64,000 nucleotides of DNA from Paenibacillus alkaliterrae. GTDB lineage: Bacteria; Bacillota; Bacilli; Paenibacillales; Paenibacillaceae. Shown here in pieces: positions 53,570 through 62,273 of the stretch; the first letter of the stretch is position 1; every line of letters begins with the position of its first letter. Under the pieces are notes generated by a model. It saw only the letters and a program-made list of their open reading frames with translations, was not told the DNA's origin and did not search any database. A program made the position numbers and the translations under genes. The stretch covers positions 186,001-250,000 of the forward strand of contig NZ_JAKGAP010000002.1 of assembly GCF_021532375.1 (NCBI RefSeq), given 5' to 3'.

Positions 53570-53645
53570 TATAGTAAAAATATTGTTGTTTAGAGCGCAT
53601 GTATACGAAACCAGCTTTGCTTACAAAGCTTTAGGAGGACACTTG

Positions 53646-54914
53646 ATGAAAAAATATAAGCTAAGCAATGGATTGCGAGTGGTCGTTGAATATATCCCGA
53701 CCGTACGATCGGTATCCTTCGGCATTTGGGTAAAAACGGGTTCGCGCAATGAGACACCGGATAATAACGGCATTTCACATTTTATAGAACATATGCTCTT
53801 TAAGGGAACGGAAGCCCGTTCAGCAAAGGATATTGCTGATTTATTCGACGGCATTGGCGGAAATGTCAATGCTTTTACATCTAAAGAGTACACCTGCTAT
53901 TTCGCAAAGGTGCTGGATGAGCATTTGCCGCTGGCCGTTGATGCGCTTTCGGATATGTTTTTTCATTCTCAACTTGATCCGGAGGAGCTTGCGAAGGAAA
54001 AAAACGTTATTCTTGAAGAAATCTCCATGTACGAGGATACACCGGACGATAAGGTGCATGACGAGGCCTCGCGGGCTGCCTTCGGGGAGCATGCGCTTGC
54101 TTATTCCATCCTTGGACTTAAAGATCGTTTAGCGGCGATGCATTCCGATACGCTTCGCGGTTATATGAATGATATGTACACGCTGGAAAATACCGTTATC
54201 AGCGTTGCGGGCAACGTAGAGGAGAGCGCCTTGCTTGCTCTGCTCGAAAAGCATTTTGGTGAATTTACGAACAGCAAGCCAACAGTGACGATTGGCGCTT
54301 CCCCAACGTTTAAGGGCGATAATTTGTTTTTTAAAAAGAAGACCGAGCAGAATCATTTATGCATATCTTTTCCCGGCTGCTCGATCACGGATTCGAAATT
54401 ATATGCAATGATTTTACTTAATAATGCGCTTGGCGGCGGCATGAGTTCGCGCCTGTTCCAAGATATTAGAGAAAAGCGTGGACTTGCATATTCCGTTTAT
54501 TCCTACCATACCTCTTACGCGGATACAGGCTTGTTTACAATTTATGCGGGTACGGCACCGAAGCAGACAAAGGAAGTGCTTGACCTGACTATGGAGCAGT
54601 TAAGCGAGCTATCCGTGAAAGGCTTGGCTGAAGAAGAGCTTCATCGCGGCAAGGAGCAGCTTAAAGGCAGCTTGATTTTAAGTTTGGAAAGCACGAGCAG
54701 CAGGATGAATCGGTTAGGGAAAAATGAGCTTATGCTAGGTCAGCATTATACGCTTGACGAGCTGCTTCTACGAATCGATTCGGTAACGATGGCGGATGTG
54801 CAAGACGTGACTAAACGCATGTTATCCGTTCCTTTTTCGGTTGCAATGGTAGGGTCAAACGATAAGGCGGCAGCACAACTCAGGAGGGATCAATTTGTAT
54901 CAAGTATTGTTTAA
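53646..54914 (+). CDS. mlpA: M16 family zinc peptidase (YmxG/MlpA)
   Basis: Processing-peptidase-like metalloprotease, 422 aa. The inverted zinc motif H45-F-I-E48-H49 ([14 protein letters not shown]) and the downstream glutamate region ([12 protein letters not shown]) are present. The C-terminal half has the [21 protein letters not shown] block. I chose ATG 53646 with TTAGGAGGA upstream; longer frames overlap the preceding gene without a ribosome site. It overlaps dut by 20 nt. No signal peptide is seen, so it is probably cytoplasmic. Confidence 0.93.
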
Positions 54915-59316: not shown

Positions 59317-60192
59317 ATGGAATTTGGAAGATTGATTACCGCAATGGTAACTCCATTCGATGCGGACGGTCAAATTGATTGGCCTACGACTGGCCGATTA
59401 ATTGATTATTTAATTGAGGAGCAGCAAAGCGATAGTCTCGTCGTTTCTGGAACAACCGGCGAATCGCCGACGCTGTCGGATGAAGAGAAGCTGGAGTTGT
59501 TTCGATTTGCTGTCAAGCATGCGAATGGTCGTTGCAAAATTATTGCGGGTACGGGCAGTAATAACACGGCCCATTCCATCCATTTGACGAAAGACGCGGA
59601 AGCTGCAGGTGTAGACGGTATTTTACTGGTTGCGCCATATTATAACCGCCCGAGTCAGGAAGGTCTTTATCAGCATTTTAAGGCGGTAGCTGAAGCGGCT
59701 TCTTTGCCAATAATGCTATACAACGTTGAAGGCCGGACAGGTGTGAATCTCTCTGTTCATACAACTCTTCGTTTAGCGGAGATCGATAATATTGTTGCTA
59801 CCAAAGATTGCGCGAACACTGACCAGCTTACACAAATCATCAGCGGGGCTCCTGCAGGCTTTAAGGTTTACAGCGGTGAAGACAGCTTTACGCTTCCTGC
59901 TCTTTCCGTAGGAGCGTACGGAATTGTCAGCGTTGCAAGCCATGTCATCGGAGCTGAGATGAAGCAGCTAATTACAGCCTATGTCGATGGAAACGTCCAA
60001 GAGGCTGCTAAGCTAAATGGGGAATGCCACCCTATTTTCAAAGGGCTGTTCGCTTGTCCTCATCCTGTTCCTAACCCGGTAGCTGTGAAATACGCGCTTG
60101 GTTTGAAAGGCTTTTCAGTAGGAGGAGTTAGGCTGCCGCTAGTAACCGTAACCGAGGCAGAAGCCACATTCTTACGCAATTTGATCGTTTGA
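59317..60192 (+). CDS. dapA: 4-hydroxy-tetrahydrodipicolinate synthase
   Basis: Condenses pyruvate with aspartate semialdehyde. 291 aa. Schiff-base K163 (IVATKDCANTDQ), Y135 (LYNVEGRTGVN; most enzymes have P in place of this E), SGTTGESPTL, and GVDGILLVAPYYNRP. AGGAGG lies 8 nt before the ATG. It is the last gene of the dipicolinate unit and is followed by a strong terminator. Confidence 0.97.
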   Translation: MEFGRLITAMVTPFDADGQIDWPTTGRLIDYLIEEQQSDSLVVSGTTGESPTLSDEEKLELFRFAVKHANGRCKIIAGTGSNNTAHSIHLTKDAEAAGVDGILLVAPYYNRPSQEGLYQHFKAVAEAASLPIMLYNVEGRTGVNLSVHTTLRLAEIDNIVATKDCANTDQLTQIISGAPAGFKVYSGEDSFTLPALSVGAYGIVSVASHVIGAEMKQLITAYVDGNVQEAAKLNGECHPIFKGLFACPHPVPNPVAVKYALGLKGFSVGGVRLPLVTVTEAEATFLRNLIV

Positions 60193-60284: not shown

Positions 60285-60314
60285 TTGTATTCCATCTTTT
60301 TCTTCATGTATAAT
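60285..60314 (+). promoter_or_regulatory. Candidate sigma-A promoter for the RNase J gene
   Basis: TTGTAT (60285-60290), 18-nt spacer, TATAAT (60309-60314). Perfect -10 and weak -35. It would start a leader of about 280 nt that contains a CGTCAGA/TCTGACG hairpin (60359-60378) and four tandem hairpin repeats. This promoter and leader account for the 401-nt gene-free stretch 60193-60593 together with the dapA terminator. Confidence 0.55.
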
Positions 60315-60428
60315 GATTTCAAGTGACTGGGTGCGGCAAATATGAATAATGAACAAAACGTCAGAGCGGCATCTGACGATAACAGCACATATGAATGATT
60401 TTTGTTCGGTTCAAACACAATCAATTGG

Positions 60429-60578
60429 ATGATTACGGGGCATCTTTTGCCTCGCAAAAATAAGAAGATGAAATCGAAGCCAACTCGCTTCGCTAATATC
60501 AGGTGATGCTTACGAAGCGGATTGCTTCGCGAAATTAAACTGATGATTACGAAGAGAATTTGCTTCGCAAAATTTAAG
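60429..60578 (+). repeat. Four tandem hairpin repeats in the rnjB leader
   Basis: Four imperfect units of 37-39 nt, each with an inverted repeat. Unit 1 CGGGGC/GCCTCG (60436-60441 with 60449-60454). Unit 2 CGAAGC/GCTTCG (60475-60480 with 60487-60492). Unit 3 CGAAGC/GCTTCG (60513-60518 with 60524-60529). Unit 4 CGAAG/CTTCG (60550-60554 with 60563-60567). Units share the frame GATG(A/C)TTACG...TCGC(A/G)AAA. The last unit ends at the AAGGAGGT ribosome site of the gene. The same hairpin occurs once before tsf. Confidence 0.8.
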
Positions 60579-60593
60579 GAGGTAAAGATACAC

Positions 60594-62273
60594 TTGTCTA
60601 AGAAGAACAACCAGGATAAACTGCTCATTTTTGCACTAGGCGGAGTAGGCGAGATCGGTAAAAACATGTACGTTATTCAGTACAATAATGACATTGTCGT
60701 TGTCGACTCGGGATTGAAGTTCCCGGAAGAGGATATGCTCGGCATAGATATTGTTATTCCGGATATTTCATACTTAACTGAAAATCGCGATAAAGTACGT
60801 GCCATCATCATTACTCACGGGCATGAGGATCACATCGGCGGGTTACCGTACGTATTGAAAAATCTAAACGTACCTATCTATGCAACGAAGCTGACACTTG
60901 GCCTTATTGAAGGAAAATTGAAGGAAGCGGGCTTGCTTGGAGAAACAAAACGGATACTTATCAATGCGGATTCTGAAATCCAGCTTGGAACGATTCGCGC
61001 TTCTTTCTTCAAAACAAACCACAGTATACCCGATTCCGTCGGCGTATGCTTGGATACGCCGGAAGGTACAATCGTACACACGGGCGACTTTAAATTTGAC
61101 CATACGCCAGTAAATGAGCAATTTGCTGATTTACAGCGTATCGCCGAAATCGGTAAGCGCGGGGTATTGGCGTTATTGTCGGATAGTACCAACGCAGAGC
61201 GTCCAGGCTACACGCCTTCAGAGGCACAGGTCGGCGACAATCTTGAGGATATATTCCGCAAATCCTCGCAGCGAGTGGTCGTAGCAACATTCGCATCAAA
61301 TGTACACCGGATTCAACAAATTATTAATGCCGCAATAGCAACTCGCCGCAAGATTGCTGTTGTTGGACGCAGTATGGTTAACGTCGTAGGTATCGCATCA
61401 GATCTCGGTTATTTAAACATTCCGGAAGGAATGATAATAGAACCGGAAGATGTAAACAAACTGGCAGCTGATCGTGTTGTTATTTTGTGTACGGGCAGTC
61501 AAGGCGAGCCCATGTCAGCGCTAACAAGAATGGCACGTTCGACACACCGCAAGGTTGATATTTTACCGGGAGATACCGTAATCATTGCTGCAACGCCGAT
61601 TCCGGGTAATGAACGTTATGTCGGCCGTACAGTCGATGAATTGTTCCGTTTAGGTGCTAACGTGATATACGGTAACGGCTCGGTGTCGGGCGTGCATGTA
61701 TCAGGTCATGGCAGTCAAGAAGAATTGAAACTCATGCTTAATCTGATTAAGCCTAAATATTTTATTCCTATTCACGGCGAATACCGTATGCTGCGTCAAC
61801 ATGGCAAGCTTGGCGAAGCGATCGGAATTGAACGCGAAAATATTTTCATCGTGGATAACGGAGATACGATTGAGTTTCAAAATGGAAGCGGCCGTAAAGG
61901 CTCGAAGGTACAAGCTGGTAACGTGTTAATTGATGGATTGGGCGTAGGCGATGTTGGAAATATCGTTCTTCGTGACCGCAAGCTGCTTTCGCAAGATGGC
62001 ATACTTGTGGTAGTCGTCACTTTAAGCAAGCAGGATGGAGCCATTATGTCAGGTCCGGATATCATTTCACGCGGCTTCGTTTATGTGCGTGAGTCTGAAG
62101 GACTTTTGGATGAAGCTAACCGTATAGTAACATCTACTTTAACCCGTTTAATGAACGATAAAGTAAATGAATGGGCATCCTTGAAAACGAACGTAAAAGA
62201 TGCGCTTGGCCGCTTCTTATATGAACAAACTCGTCGTCGCCCAATGATTTTGCCGATAATTATGGAAGTATAA
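60594..62273 (+). CDS. rnjB: Ribonuclease J
   Basis: Metallo-beta-lactamase/beta-CASP ribonuclease, 559 aa, with 5'-3' exonuclease and endonuclease activity in RNA decay and maturation. Zinc motif H75-G-H77-E-D79-H80 (IITHGHEDHIGG), HTGDFKFDH, LSDSTNAERPG, beta-CASP motifs (CTGSQGEP; HVSGHGSQEE; IPIHGEYRM) and a C-terminal domain. TTG 60594 has TAAGGAGGT upstream; an ATG at 60543 in the last repeat would add 17 residues. The position after dapA matches B. subtilis rnjB; J1 versus J2 identity cannot be told without the second paralogue. Confidence 0.93.
   Translation: MSKKNNQDKLLIFALGGVGEIGKNMYVIQYNNDIVVVDSGLKFPEEDMLGIDIVIPDISYLTENRDKVRAIIITHGHEDHIGGLPYVLKNLNVPIYATKLTLGLIEGKLKEAGLLGETKRILINADSEIQLGTIRASFFKTNHSIPDSVGVCLDTPEGTIVHTGDFKFDHTPVNEQFADLQRIAEIGKRGVLALLSDSTNAERPGYTPSEAQVGDNLEDIFRKSSQRVVVATFASNVHRIQQIINAAIATRRKIAVVGRSMVNVVGIASDLGYLNIPEGMIIEPEDVNKLAADRVVILCTGSQGEPMSALTRMARSTHRKVDILPGDTVIIAATPIPGNERYVGRTVDELFRLGANVIYGNGSVSGVHVSGHGSQEELKLMLNLIKPKYFIPIHGEYRMLRQHGKLGEAIGIERENIFIVDNGDTIEFQNGSGRKGSKVQAGNVLIDGLGVGDVGNIVLRDRKLLSQDGILVVVVTLSKQDGAIMSGPDIISRGFVYVRESEGLLDEANRIVTSTLTRLMNDKVNEWASLKTNVKDALGRFLYEQTRRRPMILPIIMEV

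Follow-up and report, generated by a model that had tools for sequence, protein, structure and literature searches.

The tandem repeats in the leader of the RNase J gene (rnj) of Paenibacillus alkaliterrae are almost certainly a four-unit, partly decayed member of a dispersed family of RNA cassettes of the Paenibacillales, located next to Shine-Dalgarno (SD) sites. One cassette consisted of the box GCUUACGAAG, a hairpin (mostly 7-9 bp with a loop of 3-4 nt), mostly 2-3 further nt and the SD. The features localised in the window, the whole stretch of 64,000 nt that was analysed, were the following (R1 is the covariance model described below):

53598 to 53632, + strand: second, degenerate copy of the cassette, hairpin AGCTTTG/CAAAGCT (R1)
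59317 to 60192: dapA, upstream neighbour of the rnj array
60285 to 60314, + strand: rnj promoter proposed by eye from the sequence, TTGTAT and TATAAT with a spacer of 18; not listed by the consensus promoter scan
60320 to 60336, + strand: rnj leader motif CAAGTGACTGGGTGCGG, separate from the array (motif count in rnj loci)
60428 to 60465, + strand: unit 1, stem CGGGGC/GCCTCG, also UUUUGC/GCAAAA (alignment A1)
60466 to 60502, + strand: unit 2, degenerate, stem CGAAGC/GCTTCG (alignment A1)
60503 to 60540, + strand: unit 3 (R1 match 60505-60538)
60541 to 60576, + strand: unit 4, terminal, adjoining the SD (R1 match 60542-60576)
60577 to 60582, + strand: SD AGGAGG of the RNase J gene (sequence and SD test)
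60594 to 62273, + strand: RNase J gene with a TTG start (TIGR00649, NF047419)

The identity of the gene was given by the RNase J family model TIGR00649 (689.7 bits, cut-off 400), and the RNase J1 model NF047419 scored 808.7 bits, just below its cut-off of 820. The units of the array started at 60429, 60467, 60505 and 60542, with a spacing of 37-38, and the last one continued into AAGGAGG (60576-60582), upstream of the TTG at 60594. When compared with the other units, unit 1 had one A-U pair replaced by G-C, with both sides changed, and one A-U pair replaced by G-U. The initial annotation had described tandem structured units in the RNase J leader, an array ending at the ribosome site and pairing retained in unit 1, and all three descriptions agreed with the unit starts, alignment A1, the R1 matches and these base changes.

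In order to search for related units, the covariance model R1 was built from 42 units located at genes other than RNase J, leaving the SD out. These remained from 52 extracted units after ten had been excluded, of which three belonged to RNase J, two were spurious rows on the reverse strand and five nearly duplicated a tandem neighbour. R1 matched unit 1 (60428-60462, 27.8 bits, E 3e-5), unit 3 (30.3 bits, E 5.8e-6) and unit 4 (35.7 bits, E 1.5e-7) in searches over 668 kb, and unit 2 was absent from the matches at E<=5. Because R1 contained no RNase J units, its matches to units 1, 3 and 4 indicated that the array is beyond chance. The isolated units 1 to 4 folded at -11.4, -9.9, -8.2 and -4.7 kcal/mol, and 6, 4, 17 and 53 of 200 shuffles, respectively, folded at least as well, which makes unit 4 unconvincing on its own. 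The minimum-energy fold of the whole leader had a z of -1.82 (equalled or bettered by 6/200 shuffles), and the four separate hairpins were not seen in it. Tandem Repeats Finder did not report the diverged array and a general repeat search gave fragments only. The unit pattern matched this genome three times, always in the rnj array, and neither the reverse search nor the backward control gave any match.

At least 35 R1 matches (E<=0.011), grouped in 30 arrays, were found in this genome, the best 150 candidates per genome having been scored in single-genome R1 searches such as this one and that of genome G300. Seven weaker matches (E >0.011) were inspected; three had an SD, one was followed by a unit and three had neither. 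The degenerate copy at 53598 scored 14.9 bits (E 0.16), which is weak taken alone; it adjoined AGGAGG (53633-53638), followed at 53646 by the ATG of a gene that was read by eye as peptidase-like. Protein-family matches were obtained for 24 of the 30 downstream genes, which encoded ribosomal proteins L27, L28 and L25, GrpE, RuvC, RapZ, an S1-domain protein, polyphosphate kinase, an electron-transfer flavoprotein, PEP carboxylase, a pyrimidine phosphorylase, an M24 peptidase, YabP, a cation transporter, RNase J and others, and no common pathway was found among these target genes. Further element-bearing genes, named by eye, were those of the ATP synthase gamma subunit, HU, DapA and DnaB. The first pattern matches, also read by eye, lay before dapA-, HU-, gltX-, accB-, flagellar, sporulation and transport-like genes, and nearly every last unit among them led into an SD. 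Among 80 rnj loci of relatives, R1 (E<0.01) matched units of the rnj leader in three (L004, L005 and L007). The other strong R1 matches in these loci belonged to two- and three-unit arrays (L012:1826-1904 and L022:1296-1412) that precede the rnj gene of other species by 1-1.7 kb and terminate at the SD of dapA-like genes.

The position of the cassette was evaluated with a strict test, in which the terminal unit had to be followed directly by an SD (AGGAGG, <=1 mismatch) and then, at normal spacing, by the start codon of an open reading frame of >=40 codons. Matches were clustered into arrays in three genomes, the present one, G031 and G300, using for the last one 96 of at least 100 R1 matches (E<=0.0058). 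The test was passed by 30/30, 46/51 and 37/38 arrays, respectively, so that 113 of 119 were in sense and adjacent to an SD; random positions in the loci of the present genome, taken on both strands, passed in 863 of 40000 cases (2.2%). All 30 arrays of this genome, that of rnj included, had the same direction as an otherwise unrelated downstream gene. Four of the six arrays that failed had SD-like sequences by eye (GAGGTG twice, AAGGGGG and GGGAAGGGG), and the remaining two (L366 and L367) resembled chance matches. Arrays reached nine units in G300. One near-consensus copy in another genome (L198, G095) had neither an SD nor a long open reading frame downstream and was an exception to the SD rule.

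The geometry was similarly constrained. In 106 arrays, the distance from the last paired base to AGGAGG was 3 nt in 44 and 2 nt in 18, and the distance from the last paired base to the start codon was 15 nt in 24 and 16 nt in 18 (mode 15, median 16, range 10-35 nt). A stem ending about 15-16 nt before the start lies near the upstream edge of the initiating ribosome, suggesting that the hairpin is flush with it. According to the available text of one study, RNase J1 of B. subtilis trims the rny mRNA to about -15, the probable position of the initiating ribosome (PMC10303841). The cassette thus has the hairpin upstream of a strong SD that is a feature of 5' stabilising stem-loops.

The stem common to the family was AGUUUUGC/GCAAAACU. 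In the 42 units of R1 (40 distinct), 97.5% of its cells were paired and three pairs were changed on both sides, none of 500 shuffles reaching any of five measures. A second set of extended units from the present and other genomes (A3, 52 of 59 units, without six of deviating length and one misplaced locus) gave 96.9% of paired cells and four double-changed pairs. The alternative stem S1 (CGAAGC/GCUUCG), in contrast, was paired in 87.5% of the cells of the 42 units, with no double change. The opposite was found in rnj units, where S1 was kept in 98.7% of cells and the family stem in 77.9%; this set (A4) comprised 23 of 24 extracted units plus two units of the window (L225 was dropped as not unit-like), and its units had been cut by a pattern favouring S1. 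The S1 covariation in rnj units was not above that of shuffles (117/500 reached it). The S1 stem, on which the repeat pattern of the initial annotation was based, was therefore retained in rnj units, with the extraction favouring it, whereas the family-wide support was for AGUUUUGC/GCAAAACU.

Two further structures were considered and are not claimed. One was an upstream hairpin, H1 (UAAGC/GCUUA), with 79.2% of cells paired and two double-changed pairs, and the other a family-wide bistable switch between S1 and the family stem, as S1 was broken in 12.5% of the cells of the 42 units. In a first composed consensus-like string S1 folded at -12.7 and the family stem at -12.4; in a second one S1 folded at -14.7 and the family stem was outside the eight listed folds. 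Some units were length variants in which the loop was replaced by about 15-25 nt (L164, L167, L205, L121 and L135), and the length-variant matches in genomes G013 and G029 spanned 57-66 nt; wherever checked, these variants ended at the SD.

The box was conserved in 107, 108, 113, 113, 95, 110, 115, 111, 104 and 113 of 117 units at its successive positions, the units having been selected by the model. Between orthologues of the three genomes it differed at 28/310 positions, and loops of the same length differed at 14/57. In the 179 base pairs of the orthologue stems, double changes numbered 31 and single ones 5; these values are indicative only, since pairing itself was used to find the stems and a change in length may count as double, and 2 of the 33 orthologue pairs were skipped.

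A test independent of the model was provided by atpG, whose loci were chosen by protein (30 loci from 119 genomes, 20 of them in one genus). The box and the hairpin were present at the SD in 23 of these loci, four others (L301, L302, L305 and L307) had the hairpin without the box right before the SD, and in the remaining three the arrangement was not seen. In the 23 loci (16 distinct) all 144 stem cells were paired and three pairs were double-changed. Pairing, number of double-changed cells and covariation score were not reached by any of 500 shuffles, and the other two measures were not above them (double-change pairs, 304/500; further pair types, 500/500). The four box-less loci suggest that the hairpin matters by itself at atpG.

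R1 matches were present in all 51 genomes of the genus, with at least 2 to at least 106 copies per genome, in at least 120 of 149 genomes of the order and in at least 5 of 249 of the phylum, four of these in the same family and one outside it, with no SD beside the match. Copy numbers are lower bounds, as the best 135, 46 and 27 candidates per genome were scored for genus, order and phylum, respectively. The unit pattern matched 64 of 295 family genomes, chance matches included, and its backward control matched 12. The element preceded 30 genes in the present genome, 47 in G031 and 37 in G300, and reciprocal best hits identified 11 shared element-bearing genes between the first two, 12 between the present genome and G300 and 13 between G031 and G300, three of the shared pairs having <40% identity. 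In the genus, 20 of 30 rnj leaders read by eye (30 of the 51 genomes) had at least one unit, some of them degenerate, and 10 had none. The partial overlap of the gene sets together with the variable presence at rnj indicated that sites have been partly inherited and partly gained and lost.

As to function, we propose that the hairpin lies flush against the initiating ribosome and thereby protects the downstream cistron or tunes its expression, a reading drawn from sequence comparison to which we give an even chance. The hairpin and the initiating ribosome together would leave almost no single-stranded gap, and the closed gap would shield the cistron against 5'-3' attack by RNase J while the SD stays free. 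This could operate either on an mRNA with its original 5' end or on the product of an upstream cut by an endonuclease such as RNase Y, for which the G/A step in the box, about 5 nt before the stem, would be a possible site. Tandem units would act as spare barriers, and a cassette at rnj could make its expression less sensitive to RNase J itself. In B. subtilis, the product of an RNase Y cut is described, in the text available, as stabilised against RNase J1 by a hairpin that follows the cleavage site (PMC11780869), and the hbs and aprE leaders discussed below are further precedents for the shield.

Several observations count against this shield. In the available part of a review, an ermC-derived mRNA of B. 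subtilis is said to have become less stable with a stem-loop placed too near the SD (PMC7509114). Promoter-like sites upstream of the cassette were only mildly enriched (24/69 against 14.0 expected, sd 3.3, the best of 200 shuffles also giving 24), so that many copies would not be near a 5' end. S1 folded as well as or better than the family stem in the composed strings, and it was S1, not the family stem, that was kept in rnj arrays. Finally, a pure shield needs no sequence conservation, and that of the box asks for a partner.

A factor that reads the box would be such a partner and is the chief alternative to the shield. Tentatively, the element may be a portable cassette of box, hairpin cap and SD, copied before up to about 100 genes per genome and multiplied in tandem, which would exert an order-specific global control of mRNA read by one trans factor (RNase, RNA-binding protein or small RNA). 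It is also possible, though we consider it rather unlikely, that the copies form a global post-transcriptional regulon with a CsrA-like logic, in which the hairpin presents the box to a reader of one of these three kinds, and translation or decay of dozens of genes is controlled together. The regulon is favoured by the conservation of the box at many genes and, at atpG, across three genera (A5), as well as by its lower divergence between orthologues when compared with the loops. However, its target genes had no common theme, the gene sets of the three genomes overlapped only partly, the hairpin was kept without the box at four atpG loci, and no partner was found when the box was compared with 16S rRNA. 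The longest run of box-16S rRNA pairing was 8, a length that 143 of 200 shuffled boxes equalled or exceeded, and this pairing was rejected.

A selfish or neutral repeat of the REP or BOX type, one that tends to land at ribosome sites, multiplies in tandem and does little for the host, seems improbable. It would fit elements that are dispersed and tandem, whose copy number varies widely within the genus, whose units are often identical inside an array (e.g. L117) and whose presence at a given gene varies among relatives. On the other hand, the arrays were in sense and locked to the SD, and their stems were compensated across genes and genera. The initial annotation had named a REP-like insertion as its alternative and had regarded genome-wide scatter with no preference for leaders as evidence against a leader element; the repeats were indeed scattered, but practically all arrays in the three genomes lay at translation starts. 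The Y1 transposase family includes the REP-associated transposases. Its domain PF01797 was detected in just 8 of the 51 genomes of the genus, all of which carry the element, and spread by Y1 transposases was rejected; the present genome gave one partial PF01797 match. No match was found in viral contigs with one exact pattern, nor in plasmids and phages by blastn with one array.

That the array is the site at which RNase J controls its own synthesis, as the initial annotation had proposed, is highly improbable: although the array ends at the rnj SD and S1 was kept in rnj units, unlike in the rest of the family, the cassette also stood before dozens of unrelated genes, one third of the rnj leaders read in the genus had no array, S1 covariation in rnj units did not exceed that of shuffles, and the widely kept part of rnj leaders was another motif.

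This motif, CAAGTGACTGG(G)TGCGG, was located in the 5' part of the leader in 51 of 80 rnj loci (plain count with <=4 errors allowed; some species contributed a second RNase J gene to the 80), and in all 51 a ATGTATAATG-like -10 hexamer was located 4-5 nt upstream of it. It reached Cohnella, Gorillibacterium, Saccharibacillus, Aneurinibacillus and an Alicyclobacillus MAG. No Rfam match was obtained for it in six rnj loci, and its RNAalifold consensus had no pairs. If RNase J does control its own leader here, CAAGTGACTGG(G)TGCGG would be, judging from its distribution in rnj loci, a better candidate than the array. The sequence TCGTCGTCMA was often seen near the SD in motif-bearing leaders (alignment A6), and a hairpin, CGTCAGAGCGGCATCTGACG (60359-60378), was observed downstream of the motif in the clade of the window.

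The cassette family is apparently undescribed. Rfam release 15 gave no match at the gathering cut-off in the window, in 10 element loci or in six rnj loci, and three chance-level matches only at E<=5. Searches of open-licence literature listed no description of such an element of Paenibacillus or of an SD-linked repeat, and the available part of a P. riograndensis RNA-seq paper (PMC5670726) does not mention the element. If the interpretation presented here is true, an RNA element that has escaped annotation marks the translation starts of tens of genes in each genome of a large group of soil bacteria. RNA annotation would gain a new family, and the copies, graded in number, would be ribosome-site insulators of natural origin. 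One could then also test whether bacteria with RNase J generally have a shield against 5'-3' decay in the form of a hairpin flush with the initiating ribosome.

The comparison with characterised systems shows partial likeness to each of them. Stabilising hairpins close to the SD are known one gene at a time, and we know of no sequence-related, sense-only cassette locked to the SD at tens to a hundred genes. In Bacillus, the aprE leader, the hbs mRNA and STAB-SD are described, in the available texts, as cases in which a hairpin and/or an SD-bound ribosome guards against 5'-3' decay by RNase J1 (PMC3997798, PMC7509114). The cassette resembles them in having a leader hairpin at the SD, from which protection may be supposed; however, those are single cases with no shared sequence, whereas the cassette recurs at tens to about 100 places per genome.

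The BOX elements of Streptococcus pneumoniae are, in the part of the source available, dispersed and modular, with a variable number of tandem middle modules, and transcribed with genes; they are reported to change the expression of their neighbours, and are considered probably parasitic, lying upstream, downstream and within reading frames (PMC3049150). Both BOX and the cassette are dispersed, modular and tandem, but only the cassette is found exclusively in sense and ending at an SD. REP and BIME sequences are intergenic, and neither their position nor their orientation is fixed with respect to the start site. The cassette is like them in being a short, palindromic, dispersed repeat outside genes, and unlike them in being sense-only, locked to the SD (113/119 arrays) and not tied to Y1 transposases. 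Finally, a hairpin in the 5' UTR of rne of Escherichia coli senses RNase E and mediates autoregulation, according to the available texts (PMC3997798, PMC7509114). The rnj array is likewise located in the structured leader of the gene of a major RNase; a leader structure at one RNase gene, however, need not concern that RNase and, unlike that of rne, the cassette is common to unrelated genes, being neither specific to RNases nor always kept at rnj.
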